Assembly (NCBI GenBank): GCA_016125385.1
Contig: WGLV01000013.1
Location: 90,006-154,005 of the forward strand
Source: a bacterium
GTDB taxonomy: Bacteria; Hinthialibacterota; Hinthialibacteria; Hinthialibacterales; Hinthialibacteraceae
Reading direction: 5' to 3'
DNA: 64,000 nt
A model generated the notes under the pieces. That model searched no databases and had not been told where the DNA came from. It was given only the letters and a program-made list of their open reading frames with translations. The translations under genes and the position numbers were made by a program. This document shows positions 47,458 to 52,665 of this stretch, in pieces (the stretch's first letter is position 1; the number at the start of each line of letters is the position of its first letter).

Positions 47458-50151
47458 TTATTCAATTTCTTCACCGACCGGCAGCGTATCCGGCGTCTCC
47501 TTCGCGGTTTCGGCGAAGACGTCGTCCGTAGTGACGCGGACGACTTCTTCAATCGACGTAACGCCCGAATGAATCTTGAACACGCCCTCGGTGCGCAGCG
47601 TCTTCATGCCCGATTTCATCGACGCCTGGCGCAGTTCCATCGTGCTTCCGCCCACTTCGATCAGGTTTCGCACCGTCTTGTCGGGAATCAACAGTTCATA
47701 AATGCCGGTTCTACCGATATAGCCCGTGCCCAGGCATTCTTTACAGCCGCGCGGGCGGTAAATCGGCTTGTTTTCAAGCATGGAGCCTTCCTGCCCCAGC
47801 TGAGCGATCTCTTTCGCCGTGGCCGTCGATTTCTTTTTGCAATGCGGACACAGCTTGCGAACCAGACGTTGAGCCACGATGCCCAGCAGCGCCGAACTGA
47901 TCAGCTTCACGTCGACGCCGATGTCGATCAGGCGCGAGATCGCCGTCGAGGTATCGATGGTGTGCAGAGTTGAAAAAACCAGGTGACCGGTCAGCGCCGC
48001 ATTCACCGAGATGCCGGCGGTTTCAAGGTCGCGAATCTCGCCGACCATGATCACGTCGGGGTCCTGGCGCAGAATCGAACGCAACGCGGTGGCGAAGGTC
48101 AGCCCCGTTTTTGTGTTGTGCTGAATCTGGTTGATGCCGTCGAGTTCATACTCGATCGGGTCTTCAACGGTGACGATGTTTTTCGAGCCGTCGTTGATGT
48201 ATTGCAGCGAGGCGTAATGCAGCGTGGTCTTGCCGCTGCCGGTCGGGCCGGTGGCGAGAATCAGGCCGTGCGGCGCGACGATGGCGCGGCGGTATTTTTC
48301 GAGCGGTTCATCGCGCATCCCCAGAGAGTCGATCGCCACGCTGGCCAGTTTCTGATCGAGCAGACGCATAACCACCTTTTCGCCCATGCGCGTCGGAATC
48401 GTCGAAACGCGCACGTTGATTTCTTCTTTCAGAATCATGCGGCGAAAGTGGCCGTCCTGCGGCAGGCGGCGCTCGGCGATATTGAGGTTGCTCAGAATCT
48501 TGATGCAGCTGCTGAACAGTTGAACCAGCGCGCCATCCAGCGGGATCGATTCAGTGATGACGCCGTCGACGCGGTACCGCACGAGGATGCGTCCTTCTTC
48601 CGGTTCGACGTGGATGTCGCTGGCGCGAATCTTCCGCGCGTGAACCATGATCAGGTTCAGCAGGTTGATCATTTCCTCGCGCTGCGCTTCATCCTGCGAG
48701 CCGCCCGACAGCCGCCGCGAAACCGCGATCATTTGAGAGCGTTGTTGAATGATCTCGGGCAGGGTGAAGGGCGGTTTGATCACCGCCTCGCAATAGGGGC
48801 ATTTTTCGAATTCATAATTCTCGAAAATATCCGGATTGTTGACGCTGCGGTTGCACTTGGGGCATCGCTTGGTGGGTTCTTCACGGTACCAGCGGTCGAT
48901 GTAGTAAGCGACCAACCCGACGACACCGGTAAAGTTGACGATCTTTCGCCAGTTGTAATACACCACGCGCCGGTTGGGCAGGTCTTTAAGCACCAGCTTC
49001 ATCGGGATGTACCACAGCACGATCAGCGCGGCGATCAGAATCAGCAGGTTCTGGCCCCAATGCCACAGGCTCCCCATCGCCTTCCCGGGCGAAGAGAAAA
49101 AGTCCTGCAGCGCTTTCGACGTGTTCTTCCAGCCGCCGTTCATCCAGTCACGCGTACGTTGCAGCATCGACTTGGGCGGCTCCGGCGTCGGCGTGGGCTG
49201 CGGCGCGGGGCGGGTGATGCGCGGCGCTTCAGGCTGCTGGGTGAGCCGGTCGATGCGCTCCAGCATCTGGGCGCGCTCCTGCATTTCGCGGTTGTTCAGC
49301 CCGTTGATGTTGACTTTATCGAGCAGTTCGCGCGCTTTCTGATAATTCTTATCGTCCAGCTCCATCCGCCCCAGGTAAAACAGCGCCTTGGGGTTATCGG
49401 GAGAGCGCTGCAACGCCTCGCTGAAGGCGGCCCGCGCCTGCGCCGATGGCATGTACGAATTGTTTTTGTAAGCCTGCTCGCCTGATAGCAGGTACAGATC
49501 GAGAATCTTGCGATCGAGATTTTTTGAAAGCGGATGATTGGGGTAATGTTCAAGAACCACCCGGTAATGTTCAATCGCCGGCTCGAGTTCGCCGTTGGTC
49601 TCAAGGCGCTTGGCTTCGTCGTAATACGCCTGCGCCACCTGGGCGTCGAGCGTTTTCTTTTTCGCCTGAAGCAGATCGAGCAAGACCGGGTTAGAGAGAA
49701 TCGTCTTGATTTTTTCAATACGGGCGATGTCGTCGAGCCCGTTGGTGAGTGGATCGCGCCGCCCCACCGTGGAGAGAAAATCGCGGATGGCTTCTTCCTG
49801 CTGCTTGAGAATCTCGTTTTTCTTCGCCGCCGCGTCCGGCATCTTCAGGGCGTCGGCGTATAGTGAAACCGCTTCGTAAAAGTCGCCCTGATTGCGTTCG
49901 GTTTGGGCGCGCAACAGCGTGTTTTCAAGCTTCGAGCTTTCTTCAATGCGGGCGATGTCGCTTCGTTTGAAGGTCATCACGCCGCTGGCGGTCTCCACCT
50001 GAACCTCGCCCCCGCCCGAGTCGACCACCGTTCCAACGAATTTCGTCCCGTTATTCAGATAGACCACGTCGCCGCGCACGCCGGACGCGAGACCCAGGAC
50101 AGCGACAATCAATAATCCGGCGAAATAAACAGATTGAAAACGAAACTTCAC
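47458..50151 (-). CDS. GspE/PilB-type ATPase fused to signal peptide, small beta domain and TPR region
   Basis: 897 residues from GTG 50151 (GAGGAG six bases upstream). Order: signal-peptide-like start (AGLLIVAVLGLASGVRG, about 11-28); a small beta domain (VVYLNNGTKFVGTVV to TFKRSDIARIE); TPR repeats to about 300; a Pro-rich linker; a membrane helix (NLLILIAALIVLWYIPM, about 369-385) and a weaker hydrophobic stretch; a zinc ribbon (CPKC, CPYC, about 428-452); the secretion ATPase with Walker A GPTGSGKTT (about 635), Asp box and Walker B VIMVGEIRD; and a C-terminal CPHC and GCKECLGTGYIGRTG zinc region. Known GspE/PilB ATPases are cytoplasmic with no signal peptide. It likely powers type IV pilus or type II secretion assembly. 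Confidence 0.85.
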   Translation of the reverse strand: MKFRFQSVYFAGLLIVAVLGLASGVRGDVVYLNNGTKFVGTVVDSGGGEVQVETASGVMTFKRSDIARIEESSKLENTLLRAQTERNQGDFYEAVSLYADALKMPDAAAKKNEILKQQEEAIRDFLSTVGRRDPLTNGLDDIARIEKIKTILSNPVLLDLLQAKKKTLDAQVAQAYYDEAKRLETNGELEPAIEHYRVVLEHYPNHPLSKNLDRKILDLYLLSGEQAYKNNSYMPSAQARAAFSEALQRSPDNPKALFYLGRMELDDKNYQKARELLDKVNINGLNNREMQERAQMLERIDRLTQQPEAPRITRPAPQPTPTPEPPKSMLQRTRDWMNGGWKNTSKALQDFFSSPGKAMGSLWHWGQNLLILIAALIVLWYIPMKLVLKDLPNRRVVYYNWRKIVNFTGVVGLVAYYIDRWYREEPTKRCPKCNRSVNNPDIFENYEFEKCPYCEAVIKPPFTLPEIIQQRSQMIAVSRRLSGGSQDEAQREEMINLLNLIMVHARKIRASDIHVEPEEGRILVRYRVDGVITESIPLDGALVQLFSSCIKILSNLNIAERRLPQDGHFRRMILKEEINVRVSTIPTRMGEKVVMRLLDQKLASVAIDSLGMRDEPLEKYRRAIVAPHGLILATGPTGSGKTTLHYASLQYINDGSKNIVTVEDPIEYELDGINQIQHNTKTGLTFATALRSILRQDPDVIMVGEIRDLETAGISVNAALTGHLVFSTLHTIDTSTAISRLIDIGVDVKLISSALLGIVAQRLVRKLCPHCKKKSTATAKEIAQLGQEGSMLENKPIYRPRGCKECLGTGYIGRTGIYELLIPDKTVRNLIEVGGSTMELRQASMKSGMKTLRTEGVFKIHSGVTSIEEVVRVTTDDVFAETAKETPDTLPVGEEIE

Positions 50152-50388
50152 GCCGTTCTCCTCAGTGAAAACGCCTTGCGACCGCCTTTGCGGATCGGCA
50201 AGAAGGATATGAGCAAGCCGCCCTTCCGATTCAGGAGGATTTACAGTAGCAGTAAAAAACCGGCCGTCCAGCACGTTCAATATCGGCCGTCTACCCCGCG
50301 TTCGCAGCGAACTCCGGGGCAACCGTCTAAAATCGCAAAATAAGCGTGACTTCCACCGCGTTTAAACCGTGCGATGCCCTGGCGGCGA

Positions 50389-50416: not shown

Positions 50417-51661
50417 TTATGGTTCGAGCGGTTGCGCGTTTCGCGCCAGTCTCATCCCGAACGACCGGCTGCGTTCGCCGCCGGGCCGCGCCAGCCTCAT
50501 CGAACAGCGAGCGTAATACTGGTTGAAGTTCCATGACCCGCCGCGCAACACGCGGTAATGAGTCTTGGACTCGCTGATTTTATAGGATGAGCCGGGGTAC
50601 GCCGTAAAAAAGCTCGACGTCCATTCAAACACGTTTCCCGCCATGTCTTCCACGCCGAACGGGCTCGCTCCAAACGGATAGCTCCCGACCGGCGCGGTAT
50701 TCTCGCGCTTCGCTTCCCACGTGTTGGCGCGGTTTACGTCAAACTTGTCGCCCCACGGATAGGTGCGCAGGCGATCGCTTTTGGCCGCGTACTCCCACTC
50801 TTCCTCGGTGGGCAACCGGCCGCCTTTCCACTGACAATACGCCTCGGCGTCTTCAAACGAGATAAACGAAACGGGGTGTTTCTCCAACCCGATGGGAATC
50901 TCCCCATCGATCCAGTTCAAGGGAGGGCGATGGCCCTCGGCTTTGACAAAATCCATATATTCCTGATTGGTGACTTCATACTTGCCGAGGTAAAACGCTT
51001 CGAGATCGACGGTATGAACCGGCTGTTCGACGACGTCGCCATCGTTAGAGCCGATAACGCACTGCCCGGCGGGAATGTAAATCATACCGGGGTATTTATT
51101 CAAAACCTCTTTCGGGATCGCCTGCTTTTCGGCCGCCGGTTCGGCGGGAGTTTGCGCCGCGTCGAATACTCCGGGATCGATATCGAGCGCTTCCGCGATC
51201 AGGTTTTCACCCCAATCGCCCAAAAGGGCTTCCTGAGACAACGTGGGCGGGTTGCGATACGCCGTTCTGATAATCAACCCTTTGTTGACATCGACCAGCC
51301 GCAACGTGAGTTCGATCAGCCCCTGTTTACGATGAAGATGCCCGGCCAGCACCTGATCGGCGCCCAGCAGGCGGCCCATGCGGACGAAACACGGTAATTC
51401 ATAACAGGGATAACTGAACTTCTTCGCCTTAAAAACGGCCAGCATTGAGTTTTTGGTGATGATGCGGAATGCGCCGGTGCGCTCGACCTCCGTGCGGATG
51501 AATTCGCTGAAAGCCTGGGCTTCGGCGACCGAAGCCTCATCGCCCAGCGTTCTCAGATCGGTAATCACCAGCAACGGCGGCGGCGTGGTTGACTGCGCCC
51601 AAACCGGCACGATGAGAAACAGGCATAGAAACAGGATGGAAATGATTCGTTGTATCTTCAT
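50417..51661 (-). CDS. FGE-sulfatase-domain protein with N-terminal TolB/FlgO-like region, secreted
   Basis: 414 residues. A signal peptide (IISILFLCLFLIVPVWAQ) is followed by a region of about 140 residues (FSEFIRTEVERTGAFRIIT, LLGADQVLAGHL) that looks like the amphipathic TolB/FlgO-like module. From about 190 comes the formylglycine-generating-enzyme fold (YIPAGQCVIGSNDGD, GKYEVTNQEYMDF, GGRLPTEEEWEYAA, GGSWNFNQYYARCSMRL). Real FGE oxidises a sulfatase Cys using two conserved cysteines; the expected pair is not obvious here, so it is probably a binding or structural relative. It lies between the TPR gene and the secretion ATPase. Confidence 0.8.
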   Translation of the reverse strand: MKIQRIISILFLCLFLIVPVWAQSTTPPPLLVITDLRTLGDEASVAEAQAFSEFIRTEVERTGAFRIITKNSMLAVFKAKKFSYPCYELPCFVRMGRLLGADQVLAGHLHRKQGLIELTLRLVDVNKGLIIRTAYRNPPTLSQEALLGDWGENLIAEALDIDPGVFDAAQTPAEPAAEKQAIPKEVLNKYPGMIYIPAGQCVIGSNDGDVVEQPVHTVDLEAFYLGKYEVTNQEYMDFVKAEGHRPPLNWIDGEIPIGLEKHPVSFISFEDAEAYCQWKGGRLPTEEEWEYAAKSDRLRTYPWGDKFDVNRANTWEAKRENTAPVGSYPFGASPFGVEDMAGNVFEWTSSFFTAYPGSSYKISESKTHYRVLRGGSWNFNQYYARCSMRLARPGGERSRSFGMRLARNAQPLEP

Positions 51662-51807: not shown

Positions 51808-52602
51808 TCAGCGATAAAAACGCCCGTTCGCCGATTCAACCAACTCATTCAGATGCGTACGCGCGCCGGTGTGATTCGGGTTGATTTCAAGCGCCCGCTC
51901 ATACTCGAGCCGGGCCTGTTCATAATTTCGCGCATGGTGATGGATACGAGCCAGCACGTAGTATATTTCAGCGCTGTTTGGATTCAGTTCTTCCGCCTTG
52001 GTCAGTTCAACGATGGCGTCTTCTTCATAGCAGTGGTTGAAATACTGAAACGCGATGCGGGTATAAACGTCGCTCATCTGTTTGACGACATCCTGAGCGA
52101 GTTGATCTTCGGGGTCCATCTCCAGCACACGCTGAAACGACGCCAGCGCCTGGCGGTAGTTCTGGCTGGCGATCTGTTGATTGGCTTTTTCGAGATTCTG
52201 GTTCCAGACTTCCTGCTTGCGCTGATGAAAGATCGCGTCGCGTTCCTGCTGGGCGCCCTGGTGGTTCGGGTTACGGCGCAGGGTTTCCATAAAGTCGAGC
52301 AGCGCCAGCTGATCGTCGCCCTTGGATAGATAGTATTCGCCTCGGCGATAATAAAATTCTTCTTCCGGTTCGTTTTGGATCGACTTGATCTCGCTTTTGT
52401 CGAGAACCAGGTATTCGCCTTTGATCGATTCGATCACGATCACTTTGGCGGAATTTTCAAGAATCCGCCCTTCGATCTGGCTTTTTTCTTTGACGACGAC
52501 GTCCGCATGCGCCACCGGCGCGGCGGCGAGCATCAAAACGCCGGTCAAGGCGAAAATTCCCATGAACGTTACATTTACATTACGGTTGGTCCTGTTCATC
52601 AT
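51808..52602 (-). CDS. Secreted TPR protein with N-terminal small beta domain
   Basis: About 264 residues. A signal peptide (MGIFALTGVLMLAAAPVAHA) precedes a beta domain (VVVKEKSQIEGRILEN to LVLDKSEIKSIQ) similar to the one in the ATPase protein at 47458. Four or more TPRs follow (YYRRGEYYLSKGDDQLALLD, YYVLARIHHHARNYEQARLE). It probably forms a periplasmic scaffold. AAGGGG nine bases upstream supports ATG 52602, with 52599 and 52611 as alternatives. A promoter is predicted about 64 bases upstream. Confidence 0.75.
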   Translation of the reverse strand: MMNRTNRNVNVTFMGIFALTGVLMLAAAPVAHADVVVKEKSQIEGRILENSAKVIVIESIKGEYLVLDKSEIKSIQNEPEEEFYYRRGEYYLSKGDDQLALLDFMETLRRNPNHQGAQQERDAIFHQRKQEVWNQNLEKANQQIASQNYRQALASFQRVLEMDPEDQLAQDVVKQMSDVYTRIAFQYFNHCYEEDAIVELTKAEELNPNSAEIYYVLARIHHHARNYEQARLEYERALEINPNHTGARTHLNELVESANGRFYR

Positions 52603-52665
52603 GGCGGCCATCCCCTTCGTCCTAAGTAGCCAGAAATCAAGAAAATGCAAGATGCCGTACTTTAT

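Follow-up and report, generated by a model that had tools for sequence, protein, structure and literature searches.

Motor ATPases of the GspE/PilB type, which power pili and secretion, are normally loose in the cell interior. An open reading frame that couples such an ATPase to an apparent export signal raises the question of where the parts of its product reside, and what kind of machine it could serve. The gene lies in a 64,000-nucleotide stretch of DNA from a member of the Hinthialibacteraceae (hereafter the window; features are collected in Table 1). Of several possible explanations, we favour, at a probability of about 0.62, a bitopic inner-membrane ATPase of the GspE/PilB class with a periplasmic beta module and TPR region, which would act in trans as a motor or regulator.

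Table 1. Positions in the window of the ATPase gene, its parts and its neighbours
Feature	Position	Strand	Basis
Complete coding frame of the fusion, 897 aa, from signal peptide to GspE/PilB-class ATPase	47458..50151	-	ORF, Pfam, conservation
Ribosome-binding site GAGGAG, 6 nt 5' of GTG	50158..50163	-	read from sequence
Signal peptide, residues 1-27, predicted cut before D28	50071..50151	-	hydrophobic core, small -1 residue, position common to relatives
Five-strand beta module, residues 28-72	49936..50070	-	AlphaFold2 strands 28-71
TPR solenoid, residues 74-304	49240..49932	-	Pfam, AlphaFold2 pLDDT about 90, Foldseek to TPR proteins
Pro-rich linker, residues 305-328			
Membrane helix TM1, residues 366-388	48988..49056	-	Hessa sum -0.28 (19 residues); kept in relatives; strongly positive C-terminal flank
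TM2, weakly hydrophobic broken helix, residues 401-424	48880..48951	-	AlphaFold2 H401-408/H410-424; Hessa sum 9.3
Zinc ribbon, residues 428-462, with CPKC...CPYC at 430-454	48766..48870	-	Cys conservation
T2SSE ATPase (N2 + CTE), residues 489-874, complete catalytic motifs	47530..48687	-	PF00437, Foldseek
Neighbour: secreted TolB_N-like + FGE-sulfatase-fold protein	50417..51661	-	synteny in 4/6 family genomes
Next gene but one upstream: stand-alone protein with signal peptide, beta module and TPRs	51808..52650	-	synteny in 4/6 family genomes

The first-pass annotation had described a GTG with a strong ribosome site opening a single frame that runs from a signal peptide through to an intact ATPase. 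Start site and spacing were confirmed, and the series of domains was recovered by Pfam, hydropathy, AlphaFold2 and comparison with relatives. The reading frame begins at the GTG at 50151; a longer version of 954 aa from an in-frame TTG at 50322 was rejected, because the relatives share both the start at the GTG position and the signal peptide directly behind it. Hydropathy shows clear segments at residues 7-25 and 369-387, with a third, weak segment at 404-422. TPR_16, TPR_2, TPR_14 and TPR_19 all score above the Pfam cut-off in the N-terminal half. Prediction of the full structure, proposed earlier as a check, gave barrel, TPR and PilB/GspE folds; in the AlphaFold2 result (nine relatives) a signal helix, a five-strand barrel, the TPR solenoid and a long membrane helix are followed by a second helix broken at Gly409. 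Chance, artefact or a chimeric assembly can be excluded, as the identical domain order, kept at 55-71% identity in related genomes, is shared by six family genomes and recurs in the Sumerlaeota. Opposite the ATPase gene lies an antisense ORF of 500 aa (window 47983-49485, plus strand), probably a shadow of codon composition.

The ATPase belongs to the GspE/PilB class (T2SSE superfamily) but is not a GspE or PilB at the equivalog level. It matches PF00437 over residues 489-872 with E = 3.8e-126 (421 bits, cut-off 24.9) and, in agreement with the claim of an intact ATPase, has the Walker A motif GPTGSGKTT, VEDPIE, GEIRD and STLHT, together with a C-terminal tetracysteine CPHC/CKEC (C768, C771, C803 and C806, invariant in a 9-sequence alignment). 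Foldseek of the full model retrieved PilF, PilB and GspE with TM-scores (by target) of up to 0.9, and identity to the solved GspE/PilB/PilF structures is about 45%. With these proteins (PF00437; 1p9r, 5tsg, 5oiu) it shares the N2 and CTE fold, Walker A and B, the Asp and His boxes and the tetracysteine zinc site; by homology it may be expected to form a hexameric ring. Unlike them, it lies outside a pilus or T2SS gene cluster and carries a periplasmic TPR part and an extra N-terminal zinc ribbon, and its predicted signal peptide and TM1 depart from the canonical cytoplasmic, signal-free form. The NCBIfam cut-offs for canonical GspE and PilB were missed (TIGR02533, 508.5 vs 630.25; TIGR02538, 478.9 vs 675.65), and the TadA/CpaF score was far under its cut-off (TIGR03819, 41.7 vs 373.15). 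The Pfam scan gave no match to the N1/MshEN domain (PF05157), a domain present in all six other full-length GspE/PilB-type ATPases of the same genome.

Within the family, the gene is present in each of the five remaining genomes, at 56-71% identity along almost its entire length; of the six copies, one is split by contig ends. The architecture recurs in a second phylum, the Sumerlaeota (the label for the phylum of G025 rests on L072, a Candidatus Sumerlaeaceae, matching L103 of the same GTDB family), so that the full domain order sought in related genomes is kept both within and beyond the family. There, the profile matches in 39 of 40 genomes, though many of the matches are other secreted beta-module/TPR proteins, and by manual row count the match extends to the zinc ribbon in 29 of the 40. 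Among 20 such zinc-ribbon-reaching loci that were read, a few have no readable signal peptide or fall short of a motif, some of these few lying at contig ends; the window family and most Sumerlaeota have kept their catalytic motifs intact. The four zinc-ribbon cysteines and Gly409 of TM2 are each invariant in 24 of 24 relatives. In 386 genomes from across the domain, the membrane-zinc ribbon segment was strongly matched in these two phyla alone.

In a tree of ATPase domains, 26 proteins of this sensor type are split from 35 conventional ATPases, six of them from the window genome, with support of 99/98.8. When three short forms (see below) were added and a long-branched protein of the sister family f2 was left out, the sensor-type proteins and short forms fell on one side of a branch (97/91.8). 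As far as ATPase-domain sequences can tell, the trees show a single origin of the split and, being unrooted, do not give its direction; on this phylogeny the signal-peptide/TPR/anchor form is one lineage, retained in two poorly known phyla. In f2 (G006-G008) the architecture is retained while the ATPase is degenerate and long-branched, reading RAQEVV for RASDIH, EKSIQ for EDPIE and CLES at the His box. The Asp-box and His-box residues are thus gone, although Walker A and the Walker B Glu are still present, and ordinary catalysis is therefore not required everywhere.

The topology depends on how many of the hydrophobic stretches cross the membrane. That the first is a signal peptide is supported by its hydrophobic core and by predicted cleavage sites that align among relatives (VRG/D in the window protein; LVA/D, AYS/D, LFA/D, VSA/D, IWA/D and SHA/D in others). 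The flank ahead of TM1 has a net charge of +0.3, against +3.7 for the flank behind it; the second is the higher in 25 of 28 relatives (p = 9e-6, for relatives that are not independent of one another), which fits an N-out/C-in orientation. TM2, which the first-pass annotation had singled out as a puzzle, proved to be one: it is usually soluble-like, with a median Hessa sum in the 28 relatives of 6.8 (range -1.4 to 12.7) against 6.9 for the best-scoring segment of the soluble ATPase, but looks transmembrane (score < 2.5) in five of them (L047, L050, L105, L110, L113). Positive charge on both of its flanks favours a non-spanning, membrane-dipping helix, and as a cytoplasmic ATPase combined with a cleaved signal peptide allows only an odd number of crossings, a dipping or interfacial TM2 is the simplest solution. 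Most likely, TM2 would dip into the membrane without spanning it; the TPRs would then be periplasmic and the ATPase cytoplasmic, the arrangement suggested earlier for a single true membrane helix and supported by the charge bias and the cleavage sites. The five exceptions count against our best explanation, as by simple counting a spanning TM2 would put their ATPase outside. The motif losses in f2 and the lack of linked PilC, pilin or secretin genes in the sensor-type loci examined weigh on the same side. Overall, we regard the case for the predicted topology as strong.

Of the genes around it, the second upstream encodes a paralogue of the ATPase's own N-terminal part, with a beta module that is the second-best match in the genome, after that of the ATPase itself. 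Homologues with the N-terminal part as a separate gene had been named as evidence against the fused architecture; such separate proteins do exist, but only as paralogues alongside a fusion that is itself conserved, and the case for export gains from them. In the adjacent protein (50417-51661), the catalytic cysteine pair of FGE is missing as judged by eye; a match to GldK/PorK stays below the cut-off (E = 1e-23). No PilC/GspF, pilin or secretin genes are linked to the gene in the window or in the loci of sensor-type relatives examined, and membership in a pilus operon was rejected on these grounds; in the Sumerlaeota the neighbours are panC, a glycosyltransferase and mnmG, which are uninformative. 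Elsewhere in the genome, an operon without an ATPase (G000:C71, L126:8470-11651) includes pseudopilin-like genes and a gene for a short T2SSF platform protein. It occurs in five of the six family genomes, was not found in G005, and is suggestive only as a possible partner. The remaining T2SSF with no ATPase next to it (C22) was set aside, as it groups with the f2 PilC that adjoins a PilB-PilT-PilB set and is thus probably an ordinary PilC. Near a PilB/PilT gene cluster, L127:5992-6702 encodes an exported protein with a beta-module-like start.

Short TM-TM2-T2SSE proteins (L180, L182, L183) were found in G142 and G279 of one phylum and G219 of another. They have the same type of membrane anchor ahead of the ATPase, and two of the three a zinc ribbon (L183 has no Cys pairs), but unlike the window protein they lack the signal peptide, the beta module and the TPRs. 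A CvpA-family gene adjoins the short-form ATPase in all three genomes, in both phyla (L189:7059-9245, L190:6422-8520, L191:8921-11042). In G279, a protein with a signal peptide and a beta-module-like region is encoded two genes from the short ATPase (L190:10565-11743), resembling a split fused protein; Pfam gave no significant TPR match in it. A periplasmic-domain protein without an ATPase (L181:748-1875) has a similar TM-TM2-zinc ribbon segment, which suggests that this is a transferable membrane module.

Beyond what was directly observed, namely the order of the domains, its conservation, a single lineage, the lack of MshEN and intact catalytic motifs, we can only propose how the protein might work. 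After cleavage of the signal peptide, the beta module and TPR solenoid would lie in the periplasm; helix 366-388 would span the membrane, and the short broken helix would dip into it ahead of the zinc ribbon and the cytoplasmic ATPase. LapB/YciM likewise joins TPRs and a zinc-binding knuckle to a membrane helix, but its TPRs are cytoplasmic, it has no ATPase, and the structural match is weak. In T2SS, the N1 domain of GspE binds the bitopic GspL, a contact proposed to relay cross-talk across the membrane (PMC6882859), and PilB docks on PilM (PMC11656802). In the window protein, the membrane segment fused to the ATPase could, with the zinc ribbon, substitute for N1/MshEN, the domain that docks on GspL or PilM, and with the anchor in its place a single chain would cover the roles of GspE and GspL. 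As with GspE-GspL (PMC6882859), a bitopic element would join a cytoplasmic ring to periplasmic parts, but here within one polypeptide, with a beta module and TPRs outside and no GspL match in the Pfam scan; the GspL/PilM cytoplasmic-domain family is absent among the Pfam and NCBIfam matches listed. A ring would set several periplasmic TPR arms above the ATPase and might link ATP turnover to the state of a partner in the periplasm; it would then act in trans, either on a pilus or secretion platform to which it is not genetically linked or in a regulatory role. Sensing of the periplasm, and a partner for it, are weakly indicated.

Whether such a protein turns over ATP to move anything can be argued in both directions, as its intact motifs would favour turnover, and its orphan setting and f2 would favour regulation. 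It is possible, if doubtful, that the ATPase is mainly a signalling device that drives no filament, the state of the periplasmic TPRs setting a nucleotide state read by cytoplasmic proteins. This would fit the orphan position of the gene in those sensor-type loci that were examined and the retention by f2 of the whole architecture around a motif-poor ATPase, and there is a precedent in Myxococcus, where a PilB deficient in ATPase activity still signals for EPS production (PMC5544727). A passive relay, on the other hand, needs no hydrolysis residues, and these are kept in the window family and most Sumerlaeota.

Improbable, in our view, is a hairpin in which both stretches span the membrane, the N-terminus is no export signal, and beta module, TPRs and ATPase are all cytoplasmic. 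The clearly hydrophobic TM2 of the five relatives fits it, as do the short forms in other phyla, which have a similar TM1-TM2-ATPase anchor without a signal peptide. A wholly cytoplasmic protein, the outcome that would most have weakened the original proposal, is however disfavoured by the aligned cleavage sites, by the exported stand-alone paralogue nearby and by the charge bias, since a hairpin would place the concentrated positive charge of the TM1-TM2 loop outside; in most relatives, moreover, TM2 is too polar. It is very unlikely that this is a routine ATPase for pilus assembly, belonging to a known cluster, whose fused N-terminus is incidental and without consequence: GspE and PilB/PilF are its closest solved relatives, yet it forms a separate lineage without MshEN, below the equivalog cut-offs and unlinked to pilus genes, and its N-terminal part is conserved across two phyla. 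An envelope-anchored ATPase working in trans, as motor or regulator, thus remains most likely.

A stronger version is more speculative, namely that this distinct membrane-anchored lineage is a one-protein transmembrane sensor-motor, in which periplasmic arms would gate ATP turnover directly, and which in one sister family would have become a largely non-catalytic sensor. No description of this architecture was found in the open-access literature searched. To our knowledge, known systems relay periplasmic events to cytoplasmic motors through proteins separate from the motor, GspL or PilM/PilN among them. If a single chain does this in nature, the coupling of periplasm to motor could be tested in one molecule, and f2, with its degenerate ATPase, would provide a built-in comparison, sensing without ordinary catalysis.
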